Source: a virus | Length of the DNA stretch: 38,778 bases | Strand: one strand, 5' to 3' | Virus record (IMG/VR): IMGVR_UViG_3300042521_001573 | Span: 1 to 38,778 of that record | Part shown: piece by piece, positions 27,572-38,671 of the stretch | Layout: each line of letters opens with the position of its first letter | Numbering within the stretch: the stretch's first letter is position 1 | The notes under the pieces: generated by a model | Database searches by the model: none | What the model was told of the DNA's origin: nothing | Seen by the model: the letters and a program-made list of their open reading frames with translations, nothing else | Position numbers and translations under genes: made by a program

Positions 27572-29617
27572 TTAATTCCTATAAATGCCACCATATATGT
27601 CAGCATTGGCTGAAGATGTAAACCATTCTGGACCTTTGTACATCTCGTTATCTTTTTTATTGGATGTTGGCATCTGTTTGAGATTGCCACCAATAATATT
27701 GTAGTCTGGAGAGGCTAATGTGCGATTGATTTGTCTTGCTAACATATTTGCAATTATTAAAGCACTATAACGGTCTTTTCTTAATCGGCCCTTTTTACCA
27801 CTAGCACTTTTAACTTCTGGAGTATCCCATCTGTCTCGTCCTCCAAATCCGCTACTAGTATGACGCATTACTATAGTTGTAAGTTCATTTTTAAGTTCTT
27901 CTATTTCTAATATGCATTCGCTCAAAGTATCATATATTGGATTTAGATCAGCATCTATAATTTTTCTACCTTCTTCTTCTATGGCCAAGCCTAAAGTTAA
28001 ATTATCGAATCTTGGAAATAATATAGCCTTGTCTTCTAGATCTTTTCTTAATCCATGATTGGCTTGTGCTGTCCAATCTGCTTTGGCAAATTGCACCAAC
28101 TCTAGTATGTGCAATCCTGGTTGAGCGTCTGTATCTTTAGCTTTATCATAATTTATGATAGGCCAAATTAATTTCTCTCCAGATTTTAATTTATCTGGAT
28201 CATGTAATGCTTCTTCAATAGCCACACCTCCACCCTGAGCATCCATACCTATTTTTAGAGGAGTAAATGTTTCCATTAAACTACGAATTTTTCTAGCACA
28301 AAAACCATAAAAATCATGATCTTCTACTAGTCCTGTCTTTTGTCTTTCTTTAAAATTACTTCTATTAGTAGTCCAACAATATACAATTCTATTATGATCT
28401 GGATGTAATTCTAAAATAACTATACTAAAATTATCTTGTTCGCTAGCAGGATCGATACCGTAAATATATTGTTTGGATGGATCACCCTTGATTCGAGTAT
28501 CAAAAACTACCTTATTACTGTTTGGTAGTATAATTTCTTTATTGTCTCCTGTAACACAACTTTCTATCAAGCTTCTTTTAAAGAACCCATCACTATCTGC
28601 TGTAAAACATGCGGCATATTCCATGTTATATATACCGCTATGGATAGTAGCTTTAGCACGAGCCACCTGTTTATCATCCATAAAACCAACAGGAATTAAT
28701 TCGTATGGAATTCTAATAATACTATAGTCTTTCCAATTAAAATTATCAGGAACTTCCCCATTAAATATTTCTTCTAATTTCCTCTGATCTCCTTGGCTTT
28801 CAATAATAGATTTATATCTTCTCCAATAACTAGCAAAATGTTTGAAAGCATAATCAGCTGTTCCGCTAATAATTGCTTGATTACCCATTTTAGTTTCTAG
28901 GCTTTCAAGTTCTTCATTCCATATGCCAGCTTCTTTCATGGCTTTTTTCTTAGCTTGTTCTTTAACGTTTTGAATTGGACTAGCGCTAACTGCTGCGAAC
29001 CCTGATACTACTGTTTCGTAAATATCAGGACTAATAGATGCAAATTCGTCAGCAATAATAATATGGGCGCGCAAACCTCTGATTTTGCTACCATCACCCA
29101 TAGGAATAGCCACCGCCCAACTTTCACCTAATCTAATGGTACATCTGTCTACATCTCGTCTTGGACCATCATCATTACCATTAAAAATACTTCTTAAAAT
29201 TGAACTATTACGCCAAATAGTTTCCATATATTCAAAGATAATTTTACTTTGTCTAAAAGCCGCACCTACGATAACAATTTTAGTTCCTGGATTAAATATG
29301 CATCTTAATACAGCATATAACGCTAGAAGAAACGACTTACCCCAGCCACGACTAGCAATATACATTGGAAACGGACGTATCCAAAACTCTTGCAATATAG
29401 CAATTTGAATAGGATGAAGTTCTATATCAAATAATAATTTACAAGTCATACCGAAATATTTAGGATCGCGCATCAACTTAATTAAATGTAAATCAGGATT
29501 TTCTATATCAATTTTTTGTCTACGAATCATGTGATTATCTGAGATCTCTATTTTTGATAGATCTCCAAGATTCAACCACGCATCTTCGAACATATGTTTA
29601 TTCTTGATTTGGGACAT
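27572..29617 (-). CDS. terL: Terminase large subunit
   Basis: This 681-residue packaging motor has an ATPase domain with Walker A SRGWGKS at residues 89-95 and Walker B HIIIADE at 185-191, whose last acid is the catalytic Glu. An RNase H-like nuclease domain follows, with a first acid in YIYGIDPASEQDNFSIVIL near residue 385, a second in IGMDAQGGG, and later acidic residues. The length is usual for T4/cyanophage-type large terminases. It overlaps the end of the ERCC4-type nuclease gene by 20 bases, so translation is likely coupled. A GGTGTA element follows the stop and precedes the portal gene. Confidence 0.95.
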   Translation of the reverse strand: MSQIKNKHMFEDAWLNLGDLSKIEISDNHMIRRQKIDIENPDLHLIKLMRDPKYFGMTCKLLFDIELHPIQIAILQEFWIRPFPMYIASRGWGKSFLLALYAVLRCIFNPGTKIVIVGAAFRQSKIIFEYMETIWRNSSILRSIFNGNDDGPRRDVDRCTIRLGESWAVAIPMGDGSKIRGLRAHIIIADEFASISPDIYETVVSGFAAVSASPIQNVKEQAKKKAMKEAGIWNEELESLETKMGNQAIISGTADYAFKHFASYWRRYKSIIESQGDQRKLEEIFNGEVPDNFNWKDYSIIRIPYELIPVGFMDDKQVARAKATIHSGIYNMEYAACFTADSDGFFKRSLIESCVTGDNKEIILPNSNKVVFDTRIKGDPSKQYIYGIDPASEQDNFSIVILELHPDHNRIVYCWTTNRSNFKERQKTGLVEDHDFYGFCARKIRSLMETFTPLKIGMDAQGGGVAIEEALHDPDKLKSGEKLIWPIINYDKAKDTDAQPGLHILELVQFAKADWTAQANHGLRKDLEDKAILFPRFDNLTLGLAIEEEGRKIIDADLNPIYDTLSECILEIEELKNELTTIVMRHTSSGFGGRDRWDTPEVKSASGKKGRLRKDRYSALIIANMLARQINRTLASPDYNIIGGNLKQMPTSNKKDNEMYKGPEWFTSSANADIYGGIYRN

Positions 29618-30325: not shown

Positions 30326-31127
30326 CAGATACACTTTCAGGAGTTAAAAATGGTTTATCTAGTGTCTTATCAGCATACGAATGATATTGTTGAAGATCTT
30401 TAATGGCTTTTTGAGTAGCCATACTGATAATTTCCATCTCTCGTCCTTCTCTCTCTCTTATTTCTTCATCTTCAAGCATACGTATAAGGCCTAACCAACT
30501 GCTTTTGCCATCTTCGATTCTTTTAATACGTTGCTCTCTGGTAGCTTTGAGATCTTTACTAATTTTTTGTTGTTCACCTAATAATTTGGTATATTCATTT
30601 GTATAATTAGCAATACTATTACGAGCAAAACTAAGCTGTGTTTCTAAATTAGCCAATTTGGGAATATCTCTTTGATCTTCTGGTTTTTCATATTCGGCAT
30701 CTACTAGACGCTGTAATTTTTCTGTTTCTGCAATATGACGCTTGCGTTCTTTCATAGAACGATTAATTAAAATATCTATTGTAATAAATTGTTTAATTTG
30801 TAGTTCTTCTGCTGGTAAAACATCTTCTCTAAACTGTCTTAGTAGATTAATCCAAATGTTTTCAAAGTATTCTAATTCGCCACTATCATTATCAAACTGT
30901 TTAACTATTTCACTCCAGAAAGTTTTACTATGTAATTTATTCTTTAAATATTCTTCATCGTTAACAATGGTATCGTCTTCTAATAATCTATTCTCGATGA
31001 TATATCTTTTAATGGGGGCGGTATTACGATTTAGTTGATCGGCAATAGTATCTATAGTTAATGATTTAACATTATCTCGTATAAATTTTTCTTCATCTAA
31101 ACTTAATTGTCCACGTTTTTTACTCAT
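30315..31127 (-). CDS. Probable terminase small subunit
   Basis: This 270-residue protein opens with an HTH-like segment (LSLDEEKFIRDNVKSLTIDT, then IADQLNRNTAPIKRYIIE, residues 9-45) of the kind small terminases use to bind the packaging site. A long charged coiled coil occupies roughly residues 120-215, suitable for ring assembly. It lies upstream of the HNH, ERCC4 and large terminase genes, in the expected order. It overlaps the sigma gene by eight bases. I cannot name a family, and a generic DNA-binding regulator remains possible. Confidence 0.65.
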   Translation of the reverse strand: MSKKRGQLSLDEEKFIRDNVKSLTIDTIADQLNRNTAPIKRYIIENRLLEDDTIVNDEEYLKNKLHSKTFWSEIVKQFDNDSGELEYFENIWINLLRQFREDVLPAEELQIKQFITIDILINRSMKERKRHIAETEKLQRLVDAEYEKPEDQRDIPKLANLETQLSFARNSIANYTNEYTKLLGEQQKISKDLKATREQRIKRIEDGKSSWLGLIRMLEDEEIREREGREMEIISMATQKAIKDLQQYHSYADKTLDKPFLTPESVSDET

Positions 31128-31746
31128 AATTATGATCTTTTAAAATTGATTGGATATGTTTTTGCAGTTGAACCAACTCGTTTTTAGTTACTTTTATGCC
31201 GCCCTTAACCTTTAAATAAGTTTCTCTATATTTTGTATGAATATTATCCTCAATAATTTTTAATATTTCGTTATTAGATATATTGTCTAATAAATTATTT
31301 TCTGATTGATGTTCTGAGGTTTCTATATCAACAGGCTTCATTAGATTTTTTTTGGTGTTGTTTCGTTCTATCCATTGGGAATAAATGGAGCAATTGTCCT
31401 TATTGGTATATTTAGCACACTGATTGGAACTTTTTTTATAATCAGGATCAAAAAATGGACAACCTACACAAACATTATCAGGGCGATAGTAGTTGTCTCT
31501 TTTAAAATTAAATAAACGATTTCTTACGTGGGTCCACAAAAAGTTTTCTAGTGGGCGTTTGTGATCATAATTTTCTAATCCTTCAAGAGCAAACATGGCG
31601 GCTTGCTGTTTCATATCATCAATTTCATGATATCCAAATTTAAATTTATAGATTAGTTTTTTACTTATATTATCAACGGCCTCTAAAAAATCTTTTTCTG
31701 TAATTTTTTTTCTGGTAAAAATATCATTCTTTTTTGGTTTTGTCAT
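31120..31746 (-). CDS. Phage RNA polymerase sigma factor (late-type)
   Basis: This 208-residue protein has a sigma-70 region-2-like block at about residues 35-90: FGYHEIDDMKQQAAMFALEG, ENYDHKRPLENFLWTHVRN, RLFNFKRDNYYR. That is the core-binding and -10-recognition helix pattern of small phage sigma factors such as T4 gp55. A four-Cys cluster follows (C93, C96, C110, C119), probably a zinc site, unusual for bacterial sigmas but familiar in phage ones. It sits at the head of the late operon, so it probably redirects host RNA polymerase to late promoters; the GGTGTA elements are candidates. It overlaps the small protein upstream by 23 bases. Confidence 0.8.
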   Translation of the reverse strand: MTKPKKNDIFTRKKITEKDFLEAVDNISKKLIYKFKFGYHEIDDMKQQAAMFALEGLENYDHKRPLENFLWTHVRNRLFNFKRDNYYRPDNVCVGCPFFDPDYKKSSNQCAKYTNKDNCSIYSQWIERNNTKKNLMKPVDIETSEHQSENNLLDNISNNEILKIIEDNIHTKYRETYLKVKGGIKVTKNELVQLQKHIQSILKDHNYE

Positions 31747-31958: not shown

Positions 31959-32159
31959 ATGAGTCGTAATTATAAAAAGTGGACCCAAACAGACATTCAG
32001 TTTATATTAGACAATCAAAATATGCTGGATAAGGATGTTGCTGTGAAACTCAGTGAAATAACTGGTCAAAGTATATCAGCAAGCATGGTTAGACGTCAAA
32101 GACGCAAGAGTGGTATTGCCAAAAGAAGAGGGCGTCCAAAGAAGGTTGCATCAGTATGA
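31959..32159 (+). CDS. Small HTH protein with an AT-hook
   Basis: This 66-residue basic protein has a homeodomain/HTH-like helix set (WTQTDIQFILDNQ, DKDVAVKLSEITG, SASMVRRQRRKSG) and then the AT-hook core R57-G-R-P60 in KRRGRPKK. AT-hooks bind the minor groove of AT-rich DNA, which fits this genome. AAGGGTGA precedes the ATG. It is divergent from the late operon, with only 82 bases between, so it could act on that promoter region. It is the first gene of a two-gene island facing the opposite way from both flanking blocks; its stop overlaps the next start. Confidence 0.75.
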   Translation: MSRNYKKWTQTDIQFILDNQNMLDKDVAVKLSEITGQSISASMVRRQRRKSGIAKRRGRPKKVASV

Positions 32160-32575
32160 TTACGGAACAGGAATATTTAAAGTCATTAACTAAACTACAG
32201 GAAAGGGAAAAATTATCATTATTAGCTAGTGAGAATGGTAAAAAATTTTTAGAAGAATATAAGAAGGCACTAGAAACTGCCAAAAAAGATAATAAACAAA
32301 TTTTCTTATTATTTTATATGGTTGGTTGTGATGGATGTAATGTTATTAAATATTTACTAGATAACAATGATAGTATTAAAAATATATTATCTAATTATAT
32401 AGTGCTATATTATAATGCTACTCAAACCAGAAGCTCTTTGGTACAAAAATATAATATATATTCTTATCCGGCCTGTTTGATTATTAATGATTCTGAAAAA
32501 GTAATTAAGCAGAAGTTGGGGATTAAAGTGTTTGATGATCCGTCTGTGGATTTTTTAGCTTGGTTAAATAGTTAA
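32156..32575 (+). CDS. Thioredoxin-like protein
   Basis: This 139-residue protein has a helical N-terminal extension of about 45 residues, then a thioredoxin fold: QIFLLFYMVGCDGCNVIKYL with redox pair C58-D-G-C61, a mixed strand YIVLYYNA, and the cis-proline strand SYPACLII with P105. A third Cys follows the cis-proline. There is no signal peptide, so it should act in the cytoplasm. It starts within the stop of the HTH/AT-hook gene (ATGA). It converges on the Cys-rich fibre gene, with about ten bases between the stops. A role in redox handling of Cys-rich virion proteins is a hypothesis; ribonucleotide reductase or another partner is possible. Confidence 0.85.
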   Translation: MITEQEYLKSLTKLQEREKLSLLASENGKKFLEEYKKALETAKKDNKQIFLLFYMVGCDGCNVIKYLLDNNDSIKNILSNYIVLYYNATQTRSSLVQKYNIYSYPACLIINDSEKVIKQKLGIKVFDDPSVDFLAWLNS

Positions 32576-37301: not shown

Positions 37302-37457
37302 GTGTTTCAATATATAATTTTTTTTAAAAAGAGATATAAGAAAACGGCCAATTGTTGTGGGGTGTGCTTATTTTTTTTATACCCCCGCCGGTTTTTGGGG
37401 GTTCTATCCCCCATTGGTGGGAAACGAAAAAACCCCCCTATTCGTGGGGGAACGCGT

Positions 37458-37475
37458 AGCAAATATCATGCCAAA
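37458..37475 (-). promoter_or_regulatory. Sigma-54-like box on the minus strand
   Basis: Read on the minus strand this is TTTGGCATGATATTTGCT, one substitution from the consensus -24 element with a perfect GG-to-GC spacing. It points left, towards the hairpin cluster and the phage block. It differs by one base from the box at 38378. Confidence 0.5.
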
Positions 37476-37518
37476 CGGAAAATAATCCGAAAGACTCTAC
37501 CCCTTTTGGGGGGGTGTT

Positions 37519-37587
37519 GCAAAATGCCGAGCAAAATGCAAAAAGTGTAGCAAAATGCAACAGCCAAAATGGCAACGCCAGAATGGC
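37519..37587. repeat. Array of five short palindromes GC(N)AAAAT(N)GC
   Basis: GCAAAATGC occurs at 37519, 37531 and 37550, GCCAAAATGGC at 37563 and GCCAGAATGGC at 37577. All have dyad symmetry. The array lies roughly 60-130 bases upstream of the sigma-54 promoter, where enhancer-binding activators normally sit. Confidence 0.7.
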
Positions 37588-37644
37588 ATATGTTGTAAAC
37601 CTAGTATTTTCAAGGGTTTGCGACTACCAAAATATTTTTCTGGT

Positions 37645-37661
37645 TTGGCACGACGATTGCA
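37645..37661 (+). promoter_or_regulatory. Sigma-54 (-24/-12) promoter
   Basis: TTGGCACGACGATTGCA matches the sigma-54 consensus YTGGCACGNNNNTTGCW at every defined position, with GG at 37647 and GC at 37659, ten bases between. Transcription would start near 37672, ahead of the 68-residue gene with its ribosome site at 37682. Confidence 0.75.
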
Positions 37662-37695
37662 GATATATTCTGGCACAAGAAAAGGATGGTGAAGA

Positions 37696-37902
37696 ATGAC
37701 GATTGTTAAGGGAATGATGTTCGTGGCAGTTCGGAATGATGGCCGACAGTTTTCCGGTGAGGTTGAGAACGTTCGGGAAACGTCCAAGGGTACGATGGTA
37801 ATCGTGTTCAGTCTCAACCCGGACTATTCCCGCAAGTATGCGACGATCTACTTGTCGGACTGCAAGACTTGGATGGTTCGGGATTGTGCGATTCAAGGCT
37901 AG
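37696..37902 (+). CDS. Small protein in the GC-richer right block
   Basis: This 68-residue protein (MTIVKGMMFVAVRNDGRQFS ...) is beta-strand-rich, with no motif I recognise. It has AAGGA nine bases before the ATG and lies 35 bases downstream of a perfect sigma-54-type -24/-12 box, so it is the likely target of that promoter. A C-run/G-run hairpin follows its stop within two bases. Codon use (CGG, AAG, GTG, GCG, TCG) differs sharply from the AT-rich phage genes to the left. Function unknown. Confidence 0.65.
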   Translation: MTIVKGMMFVAVRNDGRQFSGEVENVRETSKGTMVIVFSLNPDYSRKYATIYLSDCKTWMVRDCAIQG

Positions 37903-37904
37903 TC

Positions 37905-37919
37905 CCCCCATAATGGGGG
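37905..37919 (+). terminator. Hairpin after the 68-residue gene
   Basis: CCCCCA pairs with TGGGGG around a three-base TAA loop, two bases after the stop codon. No T tract follows, so it may terminate weakly or act as an RNA-stability element; it also belongs to the C/G hairpin family of this block. Confidence 0.4.
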
Positions 37920-37972
37920 TAGTGTTCAGTGTTTAGTCCGGTTAGAATCCATCATCAAAGGGAGAAAGAAAA

Positions 37973-38296
37973 ATGACAAAGTATAAGATTATTCGAGACG
38001 CGGAGAGGGTTGCTCGGTCATGCTTCCTAGGGATTGCTATCCCTTGCGACAAGTCCACCGCGGATGGCGGTACGATCCGTTCGGAAAAGATTCTCAAGTT
38101 CAATCGCAAGGCTTTGCGGAATATCGGCAAGGCTAAGGCCGATAAGGTTGACCCCCGCATGTTGGGGGGTGAGGACACCATGATCGTCAAGGTTGGCCAG
38201 CCCGGTAGTCGTGAACGGGTTGAGGCTTTCCGGTTGCAGTATGAAGCCATTGAGGCTAGTGGTGAGGAACTATCCCCCTTTGGGTGGGAGGGGTGA
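37973..38296 (+). CDS. Basic small protein in the right block
   Basis: This 107-residue protein is rich in Lys and Arg in its first half (KYKIIRDAERVARSC, KILKFNRKALRNIGKAKA) and acidic-to-mixed at the end. No domain is recognised. GGAG lies eight bases before the ATG, in the leader AAAGGGAGAAAGAAAA that recurs at the next gene. Two of the C-run/G-run hairpins fall inside its coding sequence, one encoding DPRMLGGE and one ending at the stop codon (SPFGWEG). It follows the 68-residue gene by 70 bases and may share its transcript. Confidence 0.6.
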   Translation: MTKYKIIRDAERVARSCFLGIAIPCDKSTADGGTIRSEKILKFNRKALRNIGKAKADKVDPRMLGGEDTMIVKVGQPGSRERVEAFRLQYEAIEASGEELSPFGWEG

Positions 38297-38327
38297 ACAG
38301 CGGTACAGCACCCCCACTACGGTAGGG

Positions 38328-38374
38328 GAACTGCCAAAATGGCAGGCCGCGCCGCCGAACTGCCAAAATGGCAG
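38328..38374. repeat. Two exact copies of an 18-bp palindromic repeat
   Basis: GAACTGCCAAAATGGCAG occurs at 38328-38345 and 38357-38374, 29 bases apart. Its 15-bp core is a near-perfect palindrome. It lies just upstream of the back-to-back sigma-54 boxes and has the same core as the array at 37563. Confidence 0.8.
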
Positions 38375-38377
38375 ATC

Positions 38378-38395
38378 AGCAAATATCGTGCCAAA
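38378..38395 (-). promoter_or_regulatory. Sigma-54 box on the minus strand, left arm of an inverted repeat
   Basis: On the minus strand it reads TTTGGCACGATATTTGCT, a full match to the sigma-54 consensus. It is the left arm of an inverted repeat whose right arm is the next box; four bases separate the arms. Confidence 0.6.
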
Positions 38396-38399
38396 AAAG

Positions 38400-38417
38400 T
38401 TTGGCACACGGTTTGCT
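38400..38417 (+). promoter_or_regulatory. Sigma-54 box on the plus strand, right arm of an inverted repeat
   Basis: TTTGGCACACGGTTTGCT keeps GG and GC with ten bases between; only one base of the -24 element differs from consensus. It points right, towards the 11-bp repeats and the 49-residue gene. Confidence 0.6.
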
Positions 38418-38425
38418 ATGAATAT

Positions 38426-38469
38426 CCTAACATAATCCTAACATAATCCTAATGAAATCCTAACTTGAA
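38426..38469 (+). repeat. Four 11-bp-phased CCTAACAT repeats, Pho-box-like
   Basis: CCTAACAT, CCTAACAT, CCTAATGA and CCTAACTT follow one another with three-base AT-rich spacers, so the period is 11 bases, one helical turn. The last copy overlaps the -35 region of the sigma-70 promoter. Response regulators of the PhoB/OmpR family bind 11-base direct repeats in this position. The identity of the binder is inference. Confidence 0.65.
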
Positions 38470-38492
38470 ATCTAAAGATTGCAGGGTATAAT
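38465..38492 (+). promoter_or_regulatory. Sigma-70 promoter of the 49-residue gene
   Basis: TTGAAA (38465-38470) and a perfect TATAAT (38487-38492) are 16 bases apart. Transcription would begin about 20 bases before the shared ribosome-site leader of the gene. Confidence 0.75.
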
Positions 38493-38521: not shown

Positions 38522-38671
38522 ATGGAAAACATGAAAATGAAAATCATGCGTGAAATTATTAGCCTACGTTATGATCTTGATAACTATCGTGAAATGAGGA
38601 TGTTTGGGAAGGTTGCGGAAATTAGGCTGGAAATTGCAAGGTTGGAAGCCCTGCTTTCCGAAACCTACTAA
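38522..38671 (+). CDS. 49-residue helical protein
   Basis: The frame MENMKMKIMREIISLRYDLD ... ends in a heptad-like helix (AEIRLEIARLEALLSE), so a short coiled coil is likely. It has a strong ribosome site (GGAG with seven bases before ATG, same leader as the 107-residue gene) and a sigma-70 promoter with TTGAAA and TATAAT just upstream, itself preceded by tandem 11-bp repeats. This combination makes it a real small gene. Function unknown. Confidence 0.65.
   Translation: MENMKMKIMREIISLRYDLDNYREMRMFGKVAEIRLEIARLEALLSETY

Follow-up and report, generated by a model that had tools for sequence, protein, structure and literature searches.

Sigma-54-type boxes recur as modules within the small-gene block of one phage family

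The right end of a virus record of 38,778 bases, analysed here as a whole and called the window, carries four sigma-54-type boxes, and boxes of the same family recur in related viral contigs. Judged from their sequence and surroundings, these boxes are probably docking sites for the sigma-54 RNA polymerase of the host, which would serve as candidate promoters in one class (class C) and as modulators in another (class R).

Results

A consensus scan found all four boxes of the original prediction in the right block of the window, at coordinates off by one or two bases: TGGCACGACGATTGC at 37646-37660 (+; 17.4 bits), TGGCACGATATTTGC at 38379-38393 (-; 17.9 bits), TGGCACACGGTTTGC at 38402-38416 (+; 19.6 bits) and TGGCATGATATTTGC at 37459-37473 (-; 16.9 bits). 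The scores come from an independent matrix built from the 29 intergenic ChIP-chip sigma-54 sites of Salmonella given in Table 3 of PMC3844500. The matrix scan of both compositional parts returned exactly four matches of at least 10 bits in the window, at 16.9-19.6 bits, and all four lie within the range of the 29 training sites (15.8-23.6 bits). All are located to the right of 37258, within the last 1.5 kb, while the left 37,258 bases, terminase included, contain no match of at least 10 bits.

Equal density in shuffled sequence had been named as an outcome that would speak against these boxes. In 1000 dinucleotide shuffles of the right block, the mean number of matches was 0.12 at 12 bits and 0.04 at 14 bits, the maximum was two, and no shuffle reached four. 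Shuffles of the whole window (n = 50) gave a mean of 1.82 matches and a maximum of five at 12 bits, and a mean of 0.64 and a maximum of two at 14 bits, and a loose scan of the whole window allowing up to two mismatches to the consensus was not significant (six matches against 3.87 expected; 19 of 100 shuffles reached six). The strength and crowding of the four boxes thus exceed chance, whereas their bare number at 12 bits does not.

Related viral contigs, which reach 230 kb in length, contain boxes of the same family (TTTGGCAYRN4TTGCW), mostly crowded into one small-gene block. In 1.80 Mb of related loci plus the window, the pattern TGGCA-N6-TTGC had 298 matches against one for the reversed pattern, some copies being counted more than once because the loci overlap; the matches represent 231 unique contexts, whereas other spacings from 2 to 12 gave 5-24 each in the related loci. 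The pattern was present in 19 of the 20 records searched whole (101 matches against three for the control), with four boxes in the window and 0-12 in each of the other 19. Several large records show clustering: eight of the nine boxes of the 224-kb contig G028 lie inside 39.0-42.8 kb and nine of the 12 of the 200-kb contig G023 inside 57.8-62.3 kb; elsewhere, for example in G017 and G022, boxes are few and more scattered, and L012 holds up to 14 in 9.7 kb. The exact form TTTGGCAYGATATTTGCT was found in 97 stretches in viral contigs, and among the 80 loci listed 68 are akin to the block and 12 are without kinship to it. Box 38379(-) and its flank are identical in L001 and L002. Many members share descent, so box counts are not independent. 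Neighbouring boxes, whether tandem, convergent or divergent, often stand 19-28 bp from each other, a spacing too close for polymerase to occupy every box simultaneously. Over 1362 pairwise comparisons, mismatches amounted to 14% in the core against 26% in the flanks, a count that mixes orthologous and non-orthologous boxes and is used for direction only.

The likeness of the boxes to the Salmonella sites extends to the positions that the search pattern left free, which were compared using frequencies with pseudocounts. At position 5, C and T had frequencies of 0.60 and 0.35 in the phage boxes against 0.56 and 0.37 in Salmonella, and position 6 was A or G in 222 of 231 phage boxes against 29 of 29 Salmonella sites. 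Positions 7, 10, 15 and 17 agreed in direction, and positions 8, 9 and 16 of the phage boxes departed from the Salmonella frequencies. The mean free-position score was 0.59 bits for the phage boxes, 2.55 for left-out Salmonella sites and -4.84 for random letters; with the first 60 of the 232 boxes, 2% of column-and-letter permutations scored at least as high. The free-position test by itself is moderate support. Taken with the spacing, the comparison shows that the box agrees at the sequence level with sigma-54 -24/-12 sites, both in spacing and at most degenerate positions.

The small-gene block includes a conserved 107-aa gene (37973-38296, +) with 50 related loci in viral contigs; its protein had no Pfam match, and its structure model was poor (pLDDT 70.6, pTM 0.34) and was set aside. 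A 68-aa gene (37696-37902, +) lies downstream of box 37646 and belongs to a family found in 31 of 51 sequences (the 50 loci plus the window), a relative of its protein giving a weak, below-cut-off TOBE match. On the far side of the 107-aa gene, the reading-frame list contains a 49-aa frame (38522-38671, +) after a pair of boxes and a sigma-70-type promoter, and a related frame is readable by eye in L025 and L017. Because most genes of the block escaped a codon-based gene caller, the orientation of the block rests on reading frames, promoters and the 107-aa gene. The terminase (27572-29617) has relatives in many viral contigs, and contigs with relatives of the terminase or the 107-aa gene are between a few kb and more than 200 kb long; four contigs occur in both lists of relatives, which places the two genes in one kind of phage. 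Records of known phages gave no DNA match to the block or to a class C region and no match to the 107-aa protein or to the sigma-like protein described below, and matched the terminase only (41 records, below 60% identity).

Class C comprises forward boxes that have TATATA or a similar sequence no more than a few bases downstream, and after it a Shine-Dalgarno-like sequence and a small gene whose start codon lies 41-74 bases from the box. From 45 candidates, 35 with a reading frame were retained, and 33 were left after near-copy removal. The 33 precede many different small genes; TATATA trails the box at a nearly fixed distance, and the base after the GC, which was free in the search, is A or T in every one of them. 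A strict forward sigma-70 pattern was found in none of the 33 from -125 to +35 of the box. Class C also occurs in loci with at most one TTGC-form box (L037, L042, L045, L047 and L049).

An upstream palindromic element (TGTAGCAAAATGCTAC and variants) was found in 21 of the 33 class C promoters, and the search pattern found none in the other 12. The distance from element start to box (n = 21), given unmerged since merged centres blur it, was 79-81 bases in two promoters, 88-89 in 13, 99-102 in four and 122 in two. These distances step by about one DNA turn, although the stepping may partly reflect which copy matched, because half-sites repeat about 11 bases apart in the element. When loci were selected on the element alone, a matrix match of at least 14 bits lay downstream on the same strand in 18 of 21; no such match occurred downstream on the opposite strand or upstream on the same strand (0 of 21 each), and 12 of 21 had one upstream on the opposite strand, which makes the boxes divergent. 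In this test four elements enter in both readings, and two of the three misses are elements read in reverse, with their box on the far side. One exact form of the element had a same-strand box at +87 to +89 in all 14 of its copies in viral contigs and no box on the other strand at any of them, about nine of these copies being distinct and five coming from records already in the analysed set. Over 42 element positions, a box lay within 150 bases on one side in 24, on both sides in 12 and on neither in six. The last two counts include some of the loci listed by the broad class C pattern scan.

In the window, the class C candidate promoter is box 37646 (37646-37660, +), with TATATT at 37664-37669 and a predicted +1 at 37672. 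Its DNA recurs in L143, where it is one of the 33 non-redundant class C promoters. A UAS-like palindromic element with a degenerate right arm, TGTAGCAAAATGCAAC, lies at 37546-37561; its centre at 37554 is separated by 92 bases from box 37646 and by 80 from box 37459(-), and precedes the predicted start of box 37646 by 118 bases. Two further degenerate palindromes, GCCAAAATGGC and GCCAGAATGGC, were seen by eye at 37563-37573 and 37577-37587. Box 37646 combines three attributes expected of a sigma-54 promoter, namely GG-N10-GC, a UAS-like element at roughly 80-150 bases upstream and no match to the strict sigma-70 pattern. In their sequence, class C forward boxes look like sigma-54-dependent promoters in anatomy, and the element at 37546-37561 is UAS-like and may be regarded as a candidate activator site.

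The single element is common to boxes 37646(+) and 37459(-), which form a divergent pair around it. Box 37459 (37459-37473, -) faces leftward genes, with a leftward reading frame 189 bases on. Its predicted +1 at 37447 falls inside a terminator-like hairpin with a T tract found by sequence scan at 37433-37451 (-).

The remaining pair of boxes belongs to a different setting, in which boxes accompany sigma-70-type promoters. Among 158 unique boxes from the 50 loci around the 107-aa gene and the window, 110 oppose the gene direction and 48, class C included, run along it. A forward sigma-70-type promoter lies within 120 bases of 73 of the 110 reversed boxes and 27 of the 48 forward boxes, 58 of the 158 boxes having no sigma-70-type promoter within that distance; none of the 158 has an opposite-direction sigma-70-type promoter on its other side. 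After reduction for redundancy to 75 promoters, the nearest reversed box was 31-33, 42-45, 52-56 or 63-64 bases upstream of the -35 in 44 of 51 cases, and forward boxes were 25-27, 36-39, 48-50 or 58-60 bases upstream of it in 18 of 24. The resultant length R was 0.69 at 11 bp for reversed boxes (n = 51) and 0.65-0.68 at 11-11.5 bp for forward boxes (n = 24), figures for which twelve periods were tried and which shared descent inflates.

Class R boxes keep the full TTTGC -12 element, mostly without the TATA sequence and upstream element seen in class C, and many come after a pair of palindromes (PAL, CTGCCAAAATGGCAG) with a GC-rich spacer. A start-to-start spacing of 29 is the commonest for the pair in related loci (54 pairs, 50 unique). 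A PAL lies from -15 to +25 of the predicted start in 41 of 258 boxes and is absent from that interval in 217; in 40 of those 41 the dyad falls no more than 3 nt from the predicted +1. TGGCA is common to box and PAL, and PAL overlaps a box in at least three places; both properties would suit one regulator reading both. In the window, PAL1 (CTGCCAAAATGGCAG) lies at 38331-38345 and PAL2 at 38360-38374, the dyad of PAL2 at 38367 coinciding exactly with the predicted +1 of the class R box 38379 (38379-38393, -). The forward box 38402 (38402-38416, +; distance class f48/r71) stands 48 bases before the -35 of a sigma-70-type promoter, TTGAAA-N16-TATAAT, at 38465-38492 (+; 11/12 matches), which would belong to the next small gene and comes from a scan with six found against 4.4 expected overall.

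Several observations on these regions were made in passing. In other subgroups, TAAGTC..ACTTA palindromes replace PAL, by eye, at the same place and with a similar GC-rich spacer, and boxes remain in several of these subgroups. CGAT occurs in 216 of 330 strict-pattern plus-strand sigma-70-type promoters of L001-L050 (in the spacer in 131 and just after the -10 in 88); this count was made without a control, and CGAT may mark a further operator or promoter class. A variant, TTTGGCATGRAAYTATATTT, which is the -24 half with TATA replacing the -12 element, was seen by eye upstream of sigma-70-type promoters in L003, L025, L027 and L049.

The original prediction thus fared unevenly. The evidence for sigma-54-type recognition is good for the box family as a whole and strongest for box 37646. 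The four do not, however, rank equally as promoters of nearby small genes: box 38379 opposes the genes, the start predicted for box 37459 falls in a hairpin, and box 38402 faces a 49-aa frame with a sigma-70-type promoter of its own. Since three of the four are of class R or of mixed type, the four-promoter picture is only partly right.

The search for an AAA+ activator gene that the prediction had called for found none on the contig or in 29 related records. The activator ATPase domain PF00158 and the RpoN DNA-binding domain PF04552 were each found in 0 of 30 records (the window and the 29 related ones, some of them fragments), which speaks against a phage-encoded sigma-54 or activator; sigma-54 and its activator would therefore be supplied by the host. 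The WhiB marker of an actinobacterial host was found in none of 20 records, which argues against such a host; actinobacteria are expected to be without sigma-54. Two bacterial assemblies, both metagenome-assembled, carry a related terminase, one with a sigma-54 domain and the other without. The AraC-type domain HTH_18 was likewise found in 0 of 20 records searched, and an AraC-type regulator of the phage was rejected on this ground.

The phage does carry a sigma-70 region-2-like protein of 208 aa (31120-31746, -), distinct from sigma-54, whose family is present in 48 of the 51 sequences. It gave a Pfam Sigma70_r2 match below the cut-off and a profile match to a sigma factor at E 0.0013, and a Foldseek search with its model gave nothing at E 0.001 or better, leaving a resemblance to region 2 only. 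The protein has a Cys-rich stretch. Beside its gene lies that of a small basic protein (31959-32159), whose family has weak HTH-like or SAM-like Pfam matches, and at 32156-32575 (+) is a thioredoxin-like protein with a Pfam Thioredoxin_7 match above the cut-off.

Discussion

Considering the anatomy of the two classes, we propose the following course of events. Host sigma-54 polymerase would bind the boxes. In class C, where an element about 105-120 bases before the predicted start is followed in order by box, AT-rich start, Shine-Dalgarno sequence and small gene, a host activator ATPase on the upstream element would switch the promoter on, so that the genes at 37696-38296 would be expressed while the host signal is active. 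Box 37459 may use the same element leftward, making a divergent pair with box 37646. The tie to a host stress or nutrient signal that was originally suggested follows only if a host activator is used. In class R, of which 38379 and 38402 are examples, boxes stand between a palindrome pair and a sigma-70-type promoter, in helical phase with its -35, and a stable, inactive sigma-54 polymerase would most likely tune or insulate that promoter instead of initiating a productive transcript. Palindrome dyads at some predicted starts suggest repression at class R. Sigma-54 polymerase can sit on promoter DNA in a transcriptionally inactive state (PMC4591121), and occupancy of a box without transcription is plausible on that basis. 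Counting against docking are the departures at positions 8, 9 and 16, the crowding of boxes, the 12 class C promoters without an element and the six element positions without a box, the 58 boxes with no sigma-70-type promoter and the 217 with no PAL nearby, the assembly without a sigma-54 domain and the 12 loci that carry the exact box form but are not akin to the block. The fuller version, a hybrid array in which host-gated sigma-54 polymerase fires class C and, docked at class R, sets sigma-70 output, is put forward tentatively, as a possibility for which the odds are somewhat unfavourable.

The main rival is that the boxes are operators of a phage or host factor, for example of AraC type, acting on sigma-70 promoters, their sigma-54 likeness being coincidental; we regard this as unlikely, while giving it appreciable weight. 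Helical phasing to sigma-70 promoters would also be expected of an ordinary activator site, and the phase to -35 elements in both box orientations, the tandem, convergent and divergent boxes 19-28 bp apart and the half-site TGGCA common to boxes and palindromes all fit an operator. However, class C boxes sit where the promoter must be, with a strict sigma-70-type promoter in 0 of 33, and are as free at the position before TGC as the sites of the Salmonella list. The lack of HTH_18 in 20 of 20 records also counts against the operator explanation, as far as a phage-encoded AraC-type factor is concerned. It is on account of class C that sigma-54 is preferred to a regulator with a similar site.

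An array of high-affinity decoys, by which the replicating genome would titrate host sigma-54 polymerase and silence host sigma-54 genes, is improbable. Under that explanation class R boxes need not regulate phage genes, and it draws on their retention of the TTTGC -12, with the TATA sequence and upstream element that mark class C mostly missing, and on loci as dense as L012, with up to 14 boxes in 9.7 kb. Decoys, however, need neither a fixed helical phase nor a PAL dyad at the predicted start, and box numbers are modest, with four in the window and 0-12 in each of the 19 further records searched whole.

It is highly improbable that class C promoters are instead recognised by the sigma-70 region-2-like factor that the phage encodes (31120-31746), the box being their -35 region and TATATA their -10. 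The presence of the factor's family in 48 of 51 sequences and the nearly fixed distance of TATATA after the box could be read in this way, but strict spacing of GG-N10-GC and an A or T following the GC are sigma-54 traits, the structure model of the factor gives a region-2-like match only, and other words, such as GTGTATA and ATTACAAT, are enriched upstream of long genes. Over all loci, GTGTAT[AT] was not enriched (292 against 316 for the reversed control). Near long genes in L054, L061, L073, L079 and L087, T tracts after hairpin-like repeats are followed by GTGTAT, an arrangement that is a possible late-promoter motif.

Chance or composition, for which the non-significant two-mismatch scan of the whole window and the whole-window shuffles reaching five at 12 bits might speak, has a practically negligible probability and is refuted by recurrence across loci, along with the 0 of 1000 block shuffles, the 298 matches against one reversed, the fixed spacing and the linkage to the upstream element.

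The preferred reading, docking of host sigma-54 polymerase at boxes of two classes, has partial precedents. The stoperators of mycobacteriophage L5 and the promoter-stem-loop cassettes of T4 type are modular short conserved elements between small phage genes. The present boxes are likewise short, modular and often in one orientation, but differ in sequence and combine a sigma-54-type box with a palindrome pair. In the dmp system, Po and Pr are reportedly a divergent sigma-54/sigma-70 pair in which sigma-54 polymerase affects the sigma-70 promoter. The phage loci have the same back-to-back arrangement of a sigma-54-type site and a sigma-70-type promoter; unlike Po/Pr, theirs is repeated, helically phased and sometimes has palindromes at the sigma-54 start.

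Compared with bacterial RpoN promoters with a UAS (PMC3844500, PMC4591121), the class C promoters are alike in -24/-12 sequence, in spacing and at most degenerate positions, in a predicted start 12 nt after the C of the -12 and in having a palindromic element some 105-120 bases upstream of the start. Unlike those promoters, the phage boxes are reused modules before many unrelated small genes, and their upstream element stands at stepped distances and is sharable by divergent boxes. Phage phi-1422, reported in PMC3391216 to have a sigma-54-type regulator gene, is likewise a phage linked to sigma-54 control; what that account describes is a regulator gene, not promoters, whereas the present family is without the activator domain in all 30 records. 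No description of sigma-54 promoter arrays in a phage family was found in the titles and abstracts of the open-licence literature. The parts are known; their repeated modular use in a phage family, together with the phasing to sigma-70 promoters, was not found in that literature.

A sigma-54 promoter does not fire until its polymerase has been remodelled by a signal-driven ATPase. Reuse of such promoters as modules would couple a phage family to host signalling, and if the hybrid array is true, the infection programme of the family would read the physiological state of the host through sigma-54. Such a family would also offer a natural test bed for the effect of a docked sigma-54 polymerase on an adjacent sigma-70 promoter.
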